Of a DNA stretch of 64,000 nucleotides, positions 41,371 to 60,085 are shown piece by piece. Source of the stretch: Mesaphorura yosii (taxonomy: Eukaryota; Arthropoda; Collembola; Poduromorpha; Tullbergiidae); assembly GCA_009869945.1 (NCBI GenBank), contig WIXG01000094.1, forward strand, positions 1 through 64,000, given 5' to 3'. A program made the translations under genes and the position numbers. Numbering within the stretch: the first letter of the stretch is position 1; the number at the start of each line of letters is the position of its first letter. A model generated the notes under the pieces. It was not told the origin of the DNA. It was given only the letters and a program-made list of their open reading frames with translations, and searched no databases.

Positions 41371-41405
41371 CTTTTTCTAGGATAGTTTGAAATTTGCACA
41401 CCGCC

Positions 41406-41978
41406 ATGGCTGTCCGACGAGCGTGGAGCCCGCATGATCTTCAGAAAGCTCTCAATTGGGTCCTGACTAACAAATATAAGACCAGGGAAGCCGCAAGAAT
41501 AGTTGGAATGTCCAGGGCCACGTTGTATCGCGCAATTCAGCGACACACTGGCCAGCAGTCAACAAGTACAAGAAAGAAGCCCGTCGAATGCGTCGAACAG
41601 TCAGCGGTACCAACGCGGGAACGGCTTGACCGAGCTGCTAAATCACGACCAAAGCTCAACGCTTCAGTCCTTATGCCAATTGCAGAAGACGTGATGGTGC
41701 AGGAAATCCTACGGCTGCATGCTGAAAATTATATTATTTCGTCAAAAGATGTTAAGAAGTTGTGTTTCCTGTACTGTCAAGATAACCCGGCGTATCTTAA
41801 TCTCGAAGGATTCGATCAGCGTAATCACCGTGCAAGTCATGAATGGTATTTGAATTTCTTAAAGAGGCATCCTGAAATTAAACCGCTTCTTCATTGTGAA
41901 AAGCATCGCCGAGTTCAGCCAGTTCAATCAACAAAGGGCTCAGATTCTGGCATAGCAGAGGATATCAACAAAGGTTAA
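41406..41978 (+). CDS. Pipsqueak-type plus CENP-B-like HTH DNA-binding protein
   Basis: A 190-residue protein, probably nuclear and DNA-binding. Residues ~6-48 match the HTH_psq pattern (DLQKALNWV, REAARIVGMSRATLYRAI). Residues ~95-160 resemble the CENP-B/Tigger second HTH, ending in HEWYLNFLKRHPEI. The start at 41406 sits in a near-ideal context (CACCGCCATGG). A pyrimidine-rich acceptor (CTTTTTCTAG) ends at 41380, so a spliced 5' UTR is likely. There is no DDE transposase domain downstream, so this may be a host gene derived from a pogo/Tigger-type element, or a transposon fragment. A second frame at 42055-42156 encodes a very basic tail (RPRRRPK) and might join by splicing. The target is unknown. 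Confidence 0.7.
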   Translation: MAVRRAWSPHDLQKALNWVLTNKYKTREAARIVGMSRATLYRAIQRHTGQQSTSTRKKPVECVEQSAVPTRERLDRAAKSRPKLNASVLMPIAEDVMVQEILRLHAENYIISSKDVKKLCFLYCQDNPAYLNLEGFDQRNHRASHEWYLNFLKRHPEIKPLLHCEKHRRVQPVQSTKGSDSGIAEDINKG

Positions 41979-46379: not shown

Positions 46380-48125
46380 AATTAGATTTACCCGGAGTTG
46401 TATAATTGCATTATTCAATTCACTTGCATAATGAAAGAGTGGTCAAAAGTCGAAAGAGTCCAAGCTTTTATCGTCTAGACGATACATGAAATGAAAGATT
46501 CAGGTGGCTCCAGCGCACAACTTGCAGGTAACGTAACATTTAACATATTGCCAGTTGCAAGCCATGCAAGCTGCGATTGAATGGTTGATGGCTGCAAATG
46601 AAGGTTATTTTTAGGGCAAAAAGGTCCAAAATGGGAGTGGTTTCTAGTCCACTTGAATTTTGAACAGCAAAACTGCATAATGAGCTTGGTTCCTTCTATC
46701 CGGAAGAGTTTCGTTGTTGTTGGCCCCCAACAACAAAGCATCGTGTAATGTATTACCTCTAAATTATGCATATGCGTTATCGGAGCAATAAATAATCCAT
46801 ACAAAAGCGTAAGGTCATATTTTCAGTTTCTAACCCATTCTGCTCGTTTTCAGCCAGACTCGAAGCCCGCTGGCGTGGGCCAGTTCAATGCTCTGATGCA
46901 AACTGCGCGTCATTATTTCGTAAGACGTCGCCAGACCAAGTGTCAAGACTCAAGAGTTTTATCAACTTGACTTTAGAAGTAAGGTCTCAAGTTTTTGAGC
47001 CGTAGCTTAATTAGCCATTGTGTAGCCAGTATTTAGTGCAAGTGCTGTTGTAATTGTAATTTCTTGAGTTCCTTGAATTGGACACTTTTGTTTATCAAAA
47101 CCACAAAGAAAAGGACAGAAATTCATAAACACAATCATTCATCATATTTGCGGACGCTTTCATCTTTAATTTCGACAAGTACGGCGACCACAACAAGCCT
47201 TTTGCCGAAGTTCTTGAGAATTGAATGAATGGACTGCCGCTGAACGACTGAACGTAAGCAGCTTGCACGTACGCATTTATTTTTCTCATCAAAAATTTCA
47301 TTAGAGAACTCAAAGCAAGGGGATTTCATAACTTTAAAGTAATTAGCTTAGGACCTCGGGTAGCATTTGGAAACGGGAATGTGTCCAGACAGTCAGAGTC
47401 AGAATCGTGACGCCAAAATTTTGAAGTCGGATAGCAATCGGGCAATGTGAGACATGCCAAAGCCAATGCTGAGCGAGTTGTGCTGGCGAAATCATTAATA
47501 AATGCCATTGGCTGGATGGATCCATAATAGCTAACTTCTATCATCAATGACGCAAATGCTTTTTGTATTTTAATTCAGCATTTAATTGCCGAACGTTGGC
47601 CCACTTTGCTAACCTAGTTGAGACGACAACTTTGTCTCGACTCTCCTCTACTCAAAAGTCTCGAACTATGGCTAATTGATGTCTGCTCAATTCAGCAATT
47701 AGTTGCGTGGCTGTTGTGTTCGTAGCGTAGCAGGAAAGGGTTGGAAATTATGTAATAGCGTGCAGCTGAATCACAAGAAATGAAGCGCGTCGTCGTCCAG
47801 TCCACTTGCTTCTCTTTCGTGGTTCTTTCCGTAGCGAAAGGCAAGCTTTGGGGTTTATGAGGTAACAGTTATCCAAGTACGTTCAGCCAATCATACGCCG
47901 CACGCGGTAGAGGAGGAGTTGATCCTCTTTTGTGTAATCATAATAGCCACCGCATTCATTCTAGTTTCCAACTTGTTCCCTACAAAAATACATTGGGACT
48001 CACTCAAGTTATGCTGGTCTTGTAGGAAGAGTATCATTTCGTTCTGCTCTCAACTCAAATACCTCAGAAAGGGTTCATTTTCATTCCATCGTCGATAGTC
48101 TCAAAATTCCAACCATTTAATTTCA
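46380..48125. other. Intergenic upstream of the giant-like gene
   Basis: No supported gene. It probably includes the giant-like promoter and a 5' UTR exon, since a TTTAATTTCAG acceptor ends at 48126. The 109-codon minus frame at 46475-46804 has no recognisable content. Confidence 0.5.
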
Positions 48126-48354
48126 GAATTTTTATTACCGTGTGCCGCCGTCGCATCAGATGTTCGATTTCGAAATCTGTGAAGTAGTCAATTTGCATTC
48201 TGTTCAATTCAACAGACGTATTTCACCTGTCTGCAAGCCTAAGCCCTTGTTCAAAGTCTACACTGCACTACCACATGGAGTAAGCTTTCTCCTCTTCCGC
48301 CACACCACCACGACCCCGTGCTCGGCACTCAGCAGAAACAAGGAGAAAGCAGTA

Positions 48355-50571
48355 ATGGATCAAGTTATCCACATGGGTTTCTTTACTCCACTCGACTTCT
48401 CAACCAAGAAACCAAAACTTCACAACAATAGCTCCGCGTTGACTGATCATGATCATTCCGATAATGATGACAACGATAACGATCGCCACAGTTCGCACAG
48501 TATTGACATGGCTGACCAGGATAATATTACTTCAATTCCTGTGGCGCAGTCGCCGTGCAGCCAACTCAGAAATATTCTCAGTATGAAGTCCCCTGGAGCT
48601 AATGAGCTCAGTTCAACTTCACCTGACACAACTGCGACAGCCCTGAATTTAACGATGCCACAACAGGCTTCGGGAATTGGACAAAATTCAGTTACCACTT
48701 GGACAAATTCAATCCCGACAGACACCATTTCAGCCAGCCCAAGTTCGTCGTCCAGACTCCTGCGCAGGAAGCGGTCAGACTCACGCTCGCATTCGCTCAG
48801 TGATGACGACGATGATAATGACAGCGGGCGAAGTTGTACCAGCAGCACCAGCCCTCCCAGCAGCAATAACAGTGACTGCAGTTTCGGCATCAAGAAATCG
48901 CCACAACCACTCTCGACGTCACATGCGTCAGCAGCCTCGCAACAACATTTCTTGAACAACTCCGCCAATCAGCATAAATCTCATTATCATCAACCAAATA
49001 TTTTAAGCAGACAGAGACAGCAGCCGCAACAGCAGTCACACTTCGACGGTCCTAATTTAAAGATGGCATCTTCTCCCAAACTGGCCAGGAAATCTCTTTT
49101 GAGTTCTGAGTCTTCTACTGTTCCAGTGGTGACGCCAATTGCAACAAAACTTTCTCCTATGCAACTGAACTTTTCCCCTTATACAGCTTTCAGTCAAGCT
49201 GCAGCTAATCTGAGCCCGATTCCAATGTTGAGTCAGACAGTTCCAACATCCTCATTCGGCTTGCCACTTCAATTTCACCCAAATTCACCTTTCTTTCCGT
49301 CGACAACAATGTCAGGCTCGCCTGCAAGTGTTTCGGGGAAAAATGAGACTTCATTGTTGACAACGTTTGGAAATCATTCTTTACTCAGTCCGAGCACTTC
49401 AGCTGTGCATGGTGAAACCGTGACCACAAACTCAACCTCTGGTGGCAAGCCAAAGACAACGCGACCATTTAAGGTAATTAATATTTCTTTTTCAGATTTC
49501 ATAGACGAACATTTCCATGCAAGATACAGCAAATCTGAAATCTCATAAAAATTCATGATCCTTTCGCTGTAGTATGAAATTAATCGCGCTACGTATTATA
49601 ATGTGGAAGGTTCAAGGCAATTCAAACTCGATTTCACGTCTTTAACCATACATAAAGTTTTCCTCATGACACAAGCGGATTATGAATTTCAAATACTTTA
49701 TTGATTTATTCCTCATTTACATACGCATGCTTTTATTTATTGCTTATTGCAGGCATATCCAAAGGATCCATTGACTTTTCCAGCAGTTGGCCTTTACGGA
49801 CTTCCAATCAACACTCCACCACCAGGGTCAAACGAATCAATTATCCACCAACAGTCAAATAGCGCTTACGCTGAATTTAGAAGACAAATGTTGTCACAGA
49901 CTCAGGGCAAAGGCTCTAAACGCTTGAACCAGCATCATTCGCAAGGACACGCGGGTCAACAGCAGCTGCAGCCGACGAACCTCCTGAGTCCAATCTCAAT
50001 TCCGACATTGGCAACCTCGTTAAGCACATCACAACAAATGCAGCAGATACAGCAGCTCCTGCTGGCTTCCGAATCGCCCACCAACTTGTCATCGTCGGCG
50101 GACATGCTGAACTACAGGCTCAGTTTAATTGAGCGTGGAAACTCGAACGCTCGAACAAATGGTGGTCGAGCACGTGGAGGTACTACATCGAGTGGAGCAG
50201 AAGACAGCCACTCCAACTCCGACGAGGGGTTTGGCAGTAATGAAAAATCACGCTTAAATGGATCCAACAAGTCCGACCAGCAGGTACGTCTGTAATCCAG
50301 CATTCATATTGATTCATTAGACCAGTGTTTGCTGATACTGATTTCCTTCCGTTCTTATTCACATTCACAGTTAAAGGACGAAGCGTACTGGGAACGAAGA
50401 CGCAAGAACAACGAAGCTGCCAAGCGGTCACGAGATGCAAGACGGGCGAAAGAAGATGAAATTGCCATCCGCGCAGCATTTCTGGAACAAGAGAACCTAA
50501 AATTGAGATTCGAAGTTTGCACATTAAAACACGAAATCGAGAAACTCAAAACCATGATTTTGAAAAGATAG
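48355..50571 (+). CDS. gt: Giant-type bZIP transcription factor
   Basis: In flies Giant is a gap-gene repressor that patterns the embryo. Exons: 48355-49473, 49753-50283, 50371-50571, all phase 0, giving about 616 residues. The start (MDQVIHMGF) has G at -3 and +4; the frame is open upstream to 48142, so a longer start is possible. Early in the protein is PLDFST, close to the CtBP-recruiting PxDLS motif. An acidic/serine stretch (~150-200) and Gln-rich segments follow. The splice at 49473/49753 joins TRPFK to AYPKDPL, a motif I recall as typical of Giant homologues. The bZIP fills the last exon: [19 protein letters not shown], then [17 protein letters not shown] as the zipper. The protein ends right after the zipper. 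I rank Giant well above other PAR/NFIL3-like bZIPs because of the RPFKAYP segment. Confidence 0.9.
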
Positions 50572-55153: not shown

Positions 55154-56558
55154 ATGGATCTCAAATTCAGTCTCAAGCAGTTTTATCTCCTGTGTACACT
55201 AATCACATTCGTTTCCTACGTCGCTCCAGTCCCCAACCGGAACTTGAGAGAAAGATTATCCGACAGAACCGGGGTAAGTTAAGTAATCATGTATTTATGC
55301 CTATGAATGTAGAAAGTGAGAAGTTATTAATGAATCTTTGCTTTGCTTCCAGGGATTTCCTTTAATCCGTGACCACCACCATGAACGCCATTTGCATCCT
55401 CCTAGATTACCGCAGCTCCTCTCAACCCTGGCAAATTCACGTTCTACACAACGAATAGCCGAGCCAACCGGGACCACAATCCATGTTTGTGACAAAAGCC
55501 CAGAGAAGGTCGTACCATCCAACTTCCCTGATAAGGGCAGCAATCTTGTTACCTACCTGCACGAATACAAGAAAAATCATTGCACACGAGTTATTCAAGG
55601 CACTGACTTCGCAACGAAGAACGTTGAGCCTAGTAGCAAGAATGGGTTCATCAGCACGGTCATTCAGTGCTACAATGGTCATCACAATCTCGTCATTCGG
55701 CCGGACGATATTTGGACAGCTATCATCTCTCAGTTTTCGCTGTACCTGAATGCGAATGCCGAAAGATTCCGTGGACGCTTTGTAAATTCCGATGGAAAGA
55801 AAACTCTTAAAGTTCATTTGGGACCTGGAACGTTGGTTTCGGTTTCGTACGAGAAGTTCGTGGAATTGATGACTGATGAGATTCATAAGCACATTGTGGA
55901 CAAAGAGGTTACGAATTGGATAATGCCAAACTTCACCACAACTACGCAAGACGATAAAATAACTGCCGGAGTCATATTTATGGCCAGCTTGAAGAAGTTC
56001 TTCAATTACGTCGGAACAATTGCTTGCGGCATTCCAAAGATCACATTGGAGGGTACAGTTGATGACTGGAAGAATATTGCAAACCGATTGACTAAGCTGC
56101 GCAGTTACAAACTCGAGTCCTGGGTGGATGACATGCTGCAACCAATCCTGGCGCAATTCATTCGTGCCAAGTCAGGAGACATCGATAAAGACTTCTGGAA
56201 TAGCATCGTGAAAGTGGAAACCGTGGGCTGCGGCAGCACAGACGTCAGCGGATGGATAACTGCGTTCAGTGTGTTTAACGACGAAGGGAAATGGCGCGCT
56301 TACGTGCCAGACAAACAAAAGTGGCCACAAATGGACATTGAGTCGATTGTGTCTGGCGTAGTTTATGTGGATGTCGTGATCGACGATAATGGAGTCAAGC
56401 ACGACACTGTGATGTTTGCCGGGCACTTGGGAAAAGAAATTCTCCCTGACTGGCTTACCCTGCAACCGAAAATCGGTTGGGCAATTGCACTGAAGAATTC
56501 AACCGCGGCGGCTCTTGAGGACGAGCAGAACGACTACATGGACCACCTGGACTATTAA
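55154..56558 (+). CDS. Secreted DUF4419-domain protein, two exons
   Basis: A 441-residue protein of unknown biochemical role. Exons: 55154-55273 and 55353-56558, phase 0, with a 79-nt intron (GTAAGT...TTCCAG). The first exon gives a signal peptide (core FYLLCTLITFVSYV, likely cut near residue 24-27). DUF4419 spans about 115-420: GFISTVIQCYNGHHNLVIRP then DDIWTAIISQFSLYLNANAE, CGIPKITLEGTVDDWKNI and VGCGSTDVSGWITAF, all family hallmarks. A large open frame on the opposite strand is a shadow. The family is best known from fungi, with scattered invertebrate members, so horizontal origin is possible; the intron and signal peptide show it is now a normal host gene. It converges on the kinase gene 172 bp away. 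Confidence 0.88.
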
Positions 56559-56730: not shown

Positions 56731-59700
56731 TCATACGCCTCGAAGTAAATTCTCGAAGAACGTCTCCAGCTCGCCAAAACTTGGCCTCTTGCCTGGCTTC
56801 TCATGCCAGCACCGAAGCATTTGTTGATATCTGAAAAATAATACTAAAACTTCTGTCTTCATCTGCCACTGAAGGAGTTCACATCACTCCACTCTATAAA
56901 GCCTAAGCCAACTTACATTTCATCGCTTGAATAGTTGGGAATATCCAATCGATGTCCGTTGGAAAGTTTGGTAGCTAATTCACGAGGATCCCGCACAGAT
57001 TCCCAAGGTTCATCACACAACGAGAACAACTCCCAAATGGTAACTCCGTACGACCAAACATCAGAGTTTAACGAACACTTGAGTGTCGTGAGTACTTCAA
57101 GAGCCAGCCATTGAAAAGGTAATGGATCCTGTAAAAAAAAGGCAAAACTTAAGATTCGCACTGATTCCATCTACAACAATCTAAAAGACACCTTACTTTT
57201 CTTTCTATTTTGTACGTGATATTCTCGTAAACCTTTCTTGACAGTCCAAAATCACCAACTTTAGCCACCAGATTGGAATCAAGCAGTACGTTTCTCGTTG
57301 CTAGATCCAGATGGACGATCTACAGTGAGGGTAACACTTTTACTCGATTTAGTCTGGAGGATTTAGTGAACTGGAGTAAAATTATGTCTTGCCTTGTGTG
57401 ATAAAAACTTCATTCCCGACGCGATTTGTACGGCCCAACGAATGAGTCTTTGAAGACAGTCAGAATGAAGGGGATATGGCGTTGGCAACGGCATCTCTTG
57501 CACCACAACTGAAGAATACTTGCTACATTAGGCATTAAAATTGAAGGTGTGGTATGGCCGCATGTATTGCTTTGCAATTATGAAGTTACCTGGAGATGCT
57601 CTGGTCTACCTGCAAGGCTGTCAACGATGGACCGCAAATATTGGTCTTAAAGTGAGCCCTATTCCAAGCAATGTAATCTTGAATATTCCCATTTTCACAA
57701 AATTCCAGTGCCACATACAGCATGCCTGTGGAAAACTCCCAATCATAGAAACAATGAAGCTGAATTATGATTCTTCAATCTTACGCTGTCGAACTCGTTG
57801 TGTATCTGCTCCAAGAAACCCGACGATGTTTGGATGTCCAGTGTCTCCAGCAGAGTCATGAATGTATTTCAAAATTTTGAGCTCAAGTAGTAATACTTTG
57901 AATGCATTTACTTGGATTGAAAGATTTGGGAATTTAATTGCAGCAGGTTTTCCATGTATAAATCCTTTCTTGATTATTCCAAAAGAACCTTTCCCTATTT
58001 GTGGTCCTTCAAAAATTTCACGAAATGAGCAAATGAAATCATTTTGATGTATAATTAAGTGCATTTCACCGAAAGTACACTGCGACGGGTCTTGCACAAT
58101 AAATTCCAGAGATTTTTCATAACCCCGGCGGCGAACAACTTCTGGACAAAAGTCGACGGCGGAATCGAGCGAAGGCCTCGTGAGTCGATCAAATTCGATG
58201 TATGGACCAACTTCGATGTTTTGATATTTCGGAGTCCCATCTTGTTGCATATTTTCTTCGTTAGCGGTGCCTACGCTGGTTTCTTCCATTTCCACCCCGC
58301 CTTCAAGTTGCAAATGGCGTTCTCCCTCAAAGAAGTCTATCAGCTCTTCTTCCGTTAAATCGCGCTATTTTGAGGTAAGATTTTAATCGAGTCATGGGAC
58401 AAGCTCAAAAACTTTTCCTAACCAAATTTCTCCGGCTTCTCAGGCCAAAGGCAATCACCAACGACGAGACGAATAACGCACAGGCTCCGACACCAATATA
58501 AATCCCTGAAATCCCGTACGTTGAAGAGTAAGGACAGTAAGGACGTAAAACGCGATGGTTATGACAAGTTGCTACATTGGAATAAAGAAGCTTCTTACAA
58601 ATTATAGGGAATTTTGATGCACAAAGCTCCGCATCTTCATCCTCGCCGTTTGGGCAATCTTCGACGCGGTTACAATTCTTTGCAACTCTTCCGGTTTGGG
58701 AGTCGATTGCTGGAATGCAATACTCTGCGAGCCCTCTTGAACATGTGAACTGATTTGCTTCACAAGCGCTGATAGCACCGCAGTAGTTGCTGTTCTGATC
58801 GGTCCCATCGTCACATTGATGCGTTTTGCCATCGCAGACTGTTTTCAGGTCTAAACACTTTGTTCCATTGTCACACGAAAATTTCTTGTGACCGCATCTG
58901 CGAGGGGCGAGAGAGAACAGACACGAATCATTTCTGATGGACCGCCATTGAAAAGTTCCCTATCATCATCACTCCAAACTTTCTTATTCTTACTTCATGT
59001 CAGCCTGCACCCACTCCAGATCCTCCAACGTCAGTAGCGAAACATAAATCAGACTTGACTCGTTGCATGTTTTAACTGTACTTTTTCGGCGCAAATTCTG
59101 AAAGCCAATTATGATCCTCTTGCCATTCTGCTCTATCACGCCTGCGCTGTCCCTTGCTATGCACGTTTTGTCTGGATTAATTGATGAAAGTTTTTAGACA
59201 AATTTATTGTTCACAATGGTTCAGCAGATCACAGGTAGTTATGCTTACTTGTATTTGGCCGAGTGATGGGTCCACAAACTCTGCTCCTGTAGCCGAATCT
59301 TTTCGTAACAGGGTCATCTTTCCAAAGTCTGTGACACCCCACGTAATCTTTGAGCTTGATGAGGTATGAAGTCTGTGTGACCCTCAGTTCAACTGTACCA
59401 TGGATAAGAACATCACTTAAGTTTGCCACTGTCTTCTCTTTTGAAAAGGTCAGATCTCTTATTAATGCTTCGCTAGGGAGGCAAGCTGGACCAAAGCCTT
59501 TGATGAACTGGATTGGCTCCTTCAAATAGATTAAGACCCAGTCATGCTCAAATGCTGGCCAGGAATTCGCTTTCGTTGGAACCTTCGGGTGAGGTTTGAT
59601 GTATGAAACCTACATTTGAAGTAGGAAACTAAGCCTTTTTTGCACAGAAGTTTGCCAACAAAGAATGAATGAAGAGGATTTCATCTTACATTTCCGATTT

Positions 59701-60085
59701 GGACGAATGCCTTATGGTCTGAAAAGTGAGCTCCAATTTGAATTGTGTAGTTGGCAAAGGGGAAAATCACGAATTTGGATTTAAGCTGCTTCTGACGAAA
59801 AGCTTGTCCGGCTAAAATTCGCACATAATGTTAGCGGAAGGAGCATATAAAAAATTGAAGAAGCTTACTCGCCAATATGGTTGTGTTATTGATGATCACT
59901 CCAACGAAAGTCTGACGTGGAAGAGGTCTGATTAACGCTGTCCACGGAGCAAAGCTTTCAGGAAAGCTGCTGCTGTATTCACACGTTGAGTCGTTTGCCT
60001 CAGCCTCCGCAGTCGTCGAGAACGACATTACGGCAATGCACCATAACATGGCGCTGACGGGAAACGGCCACAGTGACCGAATCAT
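56731..60085 (-). CDS. Receptor tyrosine kinase with trypsin-like pseudoprotease and LDLa ectodomain, 11 exons
   Basis: About 877 residues. Exons: 60085-59869, 59811-59690, 59609-59249, 59171-58994, 58897-58423, 58364-57785, 57725-57590, 57522-57393, 57319-57197, 57128-56917, 56830-56731; all phases agree. Signal peptide ~1-28. Residues ~36-292 follow the S1 trypsin fold: PWTALI, then IGAHF...[16 protein letters not shown] (Asp position), [13 protein letters not shown] (Ser position, normally GDSGGP), IIIGF, and a C-terminal LEWV helix. The TAAHC histidine and an IVGG activation site are missing, so it is probably inactive. Next come LDLa-type repeats (~293-331 and ~337-384; [18 protein letters not shown]), a TM ~421-445, and the juxtamembrane [12 protein letters not shown]. 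The kinase has [32 protein letters not shown] and [13 protein letters not shown]. The intron after 57393 appears to start with GC. Confidence 0.88.

Follow-up and report, generated by a model that had tools for sequence, protein, structure and literature searches.

The window analysed here is a stretch of 64,000 nucleotides (64 kb) forming part of contig WIXG01000094.1 (C94) in the genome assembly of the collembolan Mesaphorura yosii (GCA_009869945.1; 93.0 Mb in 1,127 contigs). On its minus strand, from 60085 to 56731, lies a gene whose 12 exons, spliced in frame, give 846 codons and a stop, and which would encode a receptor tyrosine kinase (RTK) carrying a trypsin-like (S1) domain and two LDLa repeats outside the membrane. 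All 11 introns have AG acceptors and, apart from one GC donor after exon 9, GT donors, and the exon phases are consistent across the gene. The exons of the splice model, with the evidence for their content, are as follows.

Exon 1, 59869..60085, minus strand: start codon and signal peptide, then the first part of the S1-like domain with its N-terminal Cys and PWTALI strand (splice model, alignment)
Exon 2, 59690..59811, minus strand: S1-like, with TGQA where active members have AAHC, His57 being lost (splice model, alignment)
Exon 3, 59249..59609, minus strand: S1-like, with the Asp102 position (EHDWVLI), PACLP and a later Cys pair (splice model, alignment)
Exon 4, 58994..59171, minus strand: S1-like, with CIARDSAG (Ser195 kept, Gly193 replaced by Arg, one extra residue after Cys) and the C-terminal helix (splice model, alignment)
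Exon 5, 58599..58897, minus strand: two LDLa repeats, the second by a weaker match and by eye (splice model, Pfam)
Exon 6, 58423..58505, minus strand: single transmembrane (TM) helix, residues about 394-414 (splice model, hydropathy)
Exon 7, 57785..58364, minus strand: juxtamembrane segment and kinase N-lobe (splice model, Pfam PK_Tyr_Ser-Thr)
Exon 8, 57590..57725, minus strand: kinase domain (splice model)
Exon 9, 57393..57522, minus strand: kinase domain, followed by the GC-AG intron (splice model)
Exon 10, 57197..57319, minus strand: kinase catalytic loop HLDLATRN (non-RD) and DFG (splice model, motif reading)
Exon 11, 56917..57128, minus strand: kinase C-lobe (splice model)
Exon 12, 56731..56830, minus strand: end of the kinase C-lobe and stop codon (splice model)

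An earlier sequence-only reading had joined the four S1 exons in phase and run them into LDLa repeats, a TM helix and a tyrosine kinase within one protein. The splice model reproduced its exon borders and frames, and the two junctions singled out there, 58993-58898 and 58422-58365, coincide exactly with introns 4 and 6. Paralogues elsewhere in the genome supported the union in one protein: a single 900-codon frame on contig C454 covers residues 26-835 of the window protein when the two are aligned, and C444 and C903 each hold one 570-codon frame that spans S1, LDLa and TM and continues into the kinase. Because these single-frame paralogues carry S1 into the kinase, the S1-LDLa-TM-kinase architecture is independent of the splicing model.

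Pfam Trypsin matched the S1 piece of the window protein at E = 9.4e-4 and the whole protein at 0.0075. With a hidden Markov model (HMM) of 11 paralogous S1 domains the S1 piece scored 2e-42, against 0.025 for the best of 20 shuffled copies, and the profile of these 11 domains matched solved S1 proteases, the closest being complement C1s (best, 1e-9) and protein C. Nine columns, including Cys and Trp, are invariant across the 11 copies, and the N-terminal Cys, PxCLP and later Cys pairs are mostly retained in the alignment by eye. Nonsynonymous divergence (dN) was lower than synonymous divergence (dS) in 9/9 computable pairs of S1 domains shown, a rough comparison because dS is near saturation. 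Structure prediction, which the sequence-only reading had proposed for the joined exons, gave an S1 fold, albeit for the single-frame paralogue L049 rather than for the window protein; structural matches of the model include the HGF and MSP beta chains, with protein Z at rank 2 and SMIPP-S (scabies mite inactivated protease paralogues) at rank 4. The S1 pattern seen earlier by inspection was thus borne out by the Trypsin match (below its cut-off), the paralogue HMM and the predicted fold of the paralogue.

Positions of S1 domains are given in chymotrypsin numbering. In the aligned window domain, His57 is replaced by Gln, Cys58 by Ala and Gly193 by Arg, with Asp102 and Ser195 kept; the triad therefore reads Gln-Asp-Ser, and the full His57-Asp102-Ser195 triad was found in none of the 15 S1 domains examined. 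The stretch holding the zymogen activation site (IVGG-type) is missing in the alignment, although two active S1 domains from this genome have it. The alignment agrees with the earlier statement that the Asp and Ser positions are recognisable and that the TAAHC histidine and the IVGG site are gone, though Gly193 is Arg. An active protease was rejected as an interpretation, the catalytic residues having been lost.

Downstream of the S1 domain, Pfam Ldl_recept_a matched at 3.8e-5 (24.2 bits against a cut-off of 24.1), with two stretches at E <= 1. One TM helix is predicted between LDLa and kinase, where the best hydropathy window has a mean of 2.3, and the N-terminus, hydrophobic on inspection, was read as a signal peptide. 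The kinase matched PK_Tyr_Ser-Thr at 3e-60, and the Pfam scan suggested with the earlier reading recovered all three domains, Trypsin weakly. The AAIK Lys, helix-C Glu, HxD Asp and DFG are all kept; in the catalytic loop the HRD Arg is replaced (HLD), a residue that is usual but not obligatory in RTKs. The best whole-kinase matches of a five-member family profile in the PDB were VEGFR, PDGFR, KIT and FLT3 (VEGFR1, 1.9e-81), and fish VEGFR topped the matches of the five-member alignment in the protein database. MAM, Sema, PSI, IPT and Venus-flytrap domains were not found in the window protein by the Pfam scan up to E = 1, and from NCBIfam only prokaryotic kinase models matched, those shown for the window protein being far below their cut-offs.

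The S1+LDLa part gave 27 matches in a genome search. In 19 stretches read around such matches, 18 loci with family S1 and/or LDLa sequence were counted, including the window, on C94, C1030, C608, C444, C914, C666, C668, C646, C527, C779 (twice), C454, C876, C903, C254, C533, C320 and C297. C215 and C703 also match the query but are without a kinase and were left out of this count. A kinase match lies beside 17 of the 18 loci (none in the stretch read of C533, partial on C527); C320 matches only the S1 end and first LDLa. Family members are clustered in places, for example on C779 and C646. In a tree of 43 kinases and three outgroup rows, 16 S1 receptors form one kinase clade (99/96), with a single change in 100% of the bootstrap trees.

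A genome search with the window kinase gave at least 160 matches (125 of 284 candidates scored), and, upstream of those read, a similar TM and kinase was found to carry differing ectodomains. The labelled classes are listed below; further ectodomains on related kinases, some of them Cys-rich, match none of these.

Kelch ectodomain: 5 loci (L011, L023, L027, L029, L038), by Pfam in L011 and L027, by eye in L023, L029 and L038
Ig-like ectodomain: 7 loci, by eye apart from one Pfam match below the cut-off, in L026
CLCA-like ectodomain: 4 loci, assigned by Pfam in C185 and otherwise by eye and kinase similarity
S8 subtilase ectodomain: 4 loci and a fifth on the C646 minus strand, by Pfam in C789 and on the C646 plus strand
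C-type lysozyme ectodomain: 2 read as fused (C535, C346), by Pfam in both
GH17 ectodomain: 1 locus (C175), by Pfam

In C789 an S8 domain (6e-28) and a kinase (5e-76) share one open frame, as do kelch and kinase in L027 on C654. The CLCA receptors form one kinase clade (100/100), as do four S8 rows (99/91), with the fifth S8 row (UNK_L045b in the tree) as sister (100/99). Both lysozyme receptor rows fall among the kelch rows, which indicates ectodomain exchange. With just three outgroup sequences in the tree, a single-ancestor origin of all 43 kinases is not proved. The 43 kinase cores, chosen as best matches to the window kinase or as neighbours of S1 loci, read HGD in 32, HSD in 4, HAD in 3, HLD in 2 and HRD in 2, the HRD Arg thus being replaced in 41/43; this is no census, because the loci were preselected and the motif search needed a nearby DF.

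Several of the exchanged ectodomains resemble enzymes, and their catalytic positions were read using lysozyme numbering (Glu35/Asp52) and the GH17 and S8 motifs. Pfam Lys matched at 2.6e-21 in C535 (L019+L061) and 1.6e-22 in C346 (L017+L062), both of which keep the eight lysozyme Cys. Glu35 and Asp52 are both replaced in 4/4 domains sampled, namely these two and those on C328 (L066) and C297 (L067), which are counted as lying upstream of a kinase match (0.9-1.1 kb away) and not as fused; the genome has further lysozyme matches. Among five S8 domains beside kinases (the genome search gave 94 S8 matches), at least one catalytic residue was lost in 5/5, with motifs read by eye:

S8 on C646, plus strand (L046): Ser replaced by Asp, His kept
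S8 on C789 (L031): His replaced by Ile, Ser by Asn
S8 on C981 (L015): His replaced by Gln, Ser kept
S8 on C793 (L037): Ser replaced by Asn, His outside the reading
S8 on C646, minus strand (L046): Asp, His and Ser all replaced

The loss is partial in places, since one domain keeps Ser and another His. The CLCA N-terminus was read once, on C185 (L063+L020), with Pfam CLCA at 9e-6 and 4.2e-18 on two exons; the exon between them reads NLWLR at the position of what we take to be the CLCA HEXXH motif (HEWAH). For GH17 on C175 (L032+L060; Pfam 2.1e-7), a second GH17 frame adjoins on the opposite strand. The motif reads GDSGWP in the receptor copy, GETGWP in this neighbour and GDTGWP in a third copy on C154; the GH17 domain is not claimed to be dead, because C154 also reads GDTGWP and the proton donor was not placed.

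Other features were recorded in the window and the assembly. Tail to tail with the receptor gene, a single open frame at 55320-56558 on the plus strand holds a full DUF4419 domain (5e-93). Also on the plus strand, the frame at 41391-41978 is similar to psq-type DNA-binding/CENP-B-like proteins, and 48121-50295 holds two long frames of low complexity that resemble a transcription factor, both named by eye. TTAGG repeats, in keeping with an arthropod, gave 21 overlapping matches on 5 contigs of the assembly (backward control, 0), whereas a search of the assembly for COX1 found none.

Inactive S1 domains that signal via RTKs are found in HGF and MSP (HGFL), the ligands of MET and RON, receptors with Sema/PSI/IPT ectodomains. 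The analogy with HGF drawn in the sequence-only reading is fair for the fold, as the structural matches of the model include the beta chains of HGF and MSP. In those two, however, a dead protease serves as the ligand and is secreted, whereas here it is part of the receptor. Dead S1 folds are also kept for binding in protein Z, SMIPP-S and arthropod serine protease homologues, which are soluble, and we know of none with a transmembrane kinase. In the modular proteases C215 (L056) and C703 (L057), a pseudo-S1 part is likewise followed by an LDLa-like stretch, but after it they have an S1 domain whose triad is complete and, by Pfam, no kinase in frame. Among invertebrate RTKs with unusual sensors, the nearest precedent met in the literature is the Venus kinase receptors (VKRs), which the part of PMC3703292 consulted describes as having a Venus-flytrap ligand sensor, a module used by other receptors too; the flytrap is a point of difference from the window receptor. 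P0041 (kinase and PF01094) and P0042, both read as VKR-like, carry HRD as judged by eye, and the kinase tree places them with the outgroup. LDLa is shared with ALK/LTK, described as the family uniquely holding it (passages of PMC8662651; table in PMC9953206), but that table lists MAM domains and no S1 domain for ALK, and the window protein has no detectable MAM. The 16 ectodomain types that the table gives for 20 human RTK subfamilies do not include S1, and trypsin goes unmentioned in the portion of text seen (PMC9953206).

Residues 30-420 of the window protein matched no protein at E <= 0.001 among 4,170 database candidates. When about 8,000 candidates were scored, the five-member alignment matched 40 proteins, none with trypsin and kinase among the domains listed, and the L049 frame matched 5, none with trypsin; relatives may be missed, because the candidates scored were those sharing most words. 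In titles and abstract openings of the open-licence literature, including that on trypsin/kelch/lysozyme/subtilisin, pseudoprotease/LDLa and RTK expansion, no S1-ectodomain RTK family was found; no title on tardigrades, branchiopods, springtails or mites concerned such a family, and for Daphnia and novel RTKs two papers on VKRs came up. No RTK with a protease-fold ectodomain, an architecture already called unfamiliar from the sequence, thus turned up among the candidates scored or in this literature.

On this evidence the window gene is almost certainly an intact single-pass RTK whose ectodomain would be a catalytically dead, non-activatable S1 domain with two LDLa repeats. The fuller explanation, to which we assign a probability of about 0.7, is that this dead-S1 receptor kinase belongs to a multigene family within a mostly non-RD set with swapped ectodomains, several of which are other dead enzymes, as judged from catalytic positions in the examples read. 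Both the family of 18 loci and the wider set go further than the sequence-only reading. Receptor anatomy, loss of catalytic residues and family expansion can be read from the genome, and maintenance of the S1 fold is predicted by the paralogue model. The S1 fold would have been kept as a binding surface after catalysis was lost, and may bind a protein that normally docks on proteases, candidates being inhibitors, other proteases and microbial factors; the LDLa repeats may serve as a stalk or as co-binding sites. Binding would cluster receptors and so switch on, position or present a kinase whose Lys, Glu, HxD Asp and DFG are intact. It is probable that the protein serves as a receptor and binds its ligand by the S1 fold; a role in defence, as decoy or pattern receptor, is a tentative suggestion. 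Similarly tentative is the wider proposal that an arthropod lineage put dead enzymes (S1, S8, C-type lysozyme, CLCA metalloprotease and perhaps GH17 glucanase) on an expanding non-RD RTK lineage, each sensing the binders of its living counterpart, whether inhibitor, substrate or microbe.

Several observations weigh against this explanation. The Trypsin score of the window protein, 19.5 bits, is under the curated cut-off of 20.6, and 5 of the 11 paralogous S1 pieces, L049 included, have no Trypsin match at E <= 0.01 alone. The structural model is of L049 and of modest confidence (mean pLDDT 68), and the dN/dS comparison, with its near-saturated dS, left out the window gene, whose model comes from genomic sequence. 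C215 and C703 show that dead S1 domains can stand in proteins lacking a kinase, individual S8 domains retain Ser or His, and kelch and Ig ectodomains are non-enzymes, so a dead enzyme is no rule for the whole kinase set.

As to the ligand, the receptor could be an integrated decoy in immunity, a possibility we regard with some doubt: the dead S1 domain would mimic a host defence protease, inhibitors from pathogens or parasites would bind it and the kinase would be activated, and the dead lysozyme and subtilase receptors would likewise sense lysozyme and subtilase inhibitors. Integrated decoys exist in plants, and pathogens secrete inhibitors of proteases and lysozyme. Several enzyme folds, disabled where read, on related kinases, the many members with their clusters on C779 and C646, and the closeness of the S1 profile to complement C1s and protein C are consistent with this, but kelch, Ig and Cys-rich siblings misfit a pure enzyme decoy. 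The kinases are mostly non-RD, a type linked to innate immunity in plants and animals according to the excerpt of PMC8463890 consulted, which for these kinases would be a correlate only and not a test.

The S1-LDLa ectodomain might instead bind partner proteases or cofactors of an extracellular cascade of the host and report its activity, and would then be a relative of the leading section of modular pseudo-protease proteins; we regard this with about as much doubt as the decoy, the two being the leading proposals for the partner. C215 and C703 have the corresponding arrangement, and on the receptor HMM their pseudo-S1 parts scored 29.1 and 20.0 bits against 14.8 and 19.2 bits for their active S1 parts, respectively; the window S1 piece also prefers the pseudo part of C215 (38.9 vs 23.5 bits). 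However, the margin for C703 is negligible, the receptor domains L042 and L044 prefer the active part, Pfam LDLa was not found in C215 or C703 at E <= 0.001, and the cascade partner is hypothetical. Similarity to C215- and C703-type proteins gives weak support for these as candidate donors or partners of the receptor S1-LDLa, and an origin of the receptor from modular proteins of pseudo-S1 and LDLa-like parts is weakly favoured.

It is very improbable that the S1 domain of the receptor is a decaying passenger without function: lost catalytic residues, diverged sequence, a weak Pfam score and the broken appearance of the C533 fragment would fit decay, but frames are intact, and the invariant columns, the retained Cys and PxCLP positions and the excess of dS over dN in every computable pair shown argue against it. 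A false joining of two neighbouring genes, one for a secreted S1-LDLa protein and one for a separate TM kinase, for which the sole point is that the splice model comes from genomic sequence, was rejected as hardly credible, because paralogues hold the whole architecture in one frame (C454, with C444 and C903 running into the kinase), the splice phases are consistent and the kinases of S1 loci form one clade.

Returning to the dead-S1 receptor kinase as the preferred explanation, the wider family points to a way in which new receptors might arise generally: an enzyme is disabled, its binding site kept and a kinase attached. If true, dead-enzyme sensing would be an animal parallel to the non-RD pattern receptors and integrated decoys of plants, and the finding opens to experiment the question of whether non-RD receptor kinases and enzyme decoys arose for defence in animals as they did in plants.
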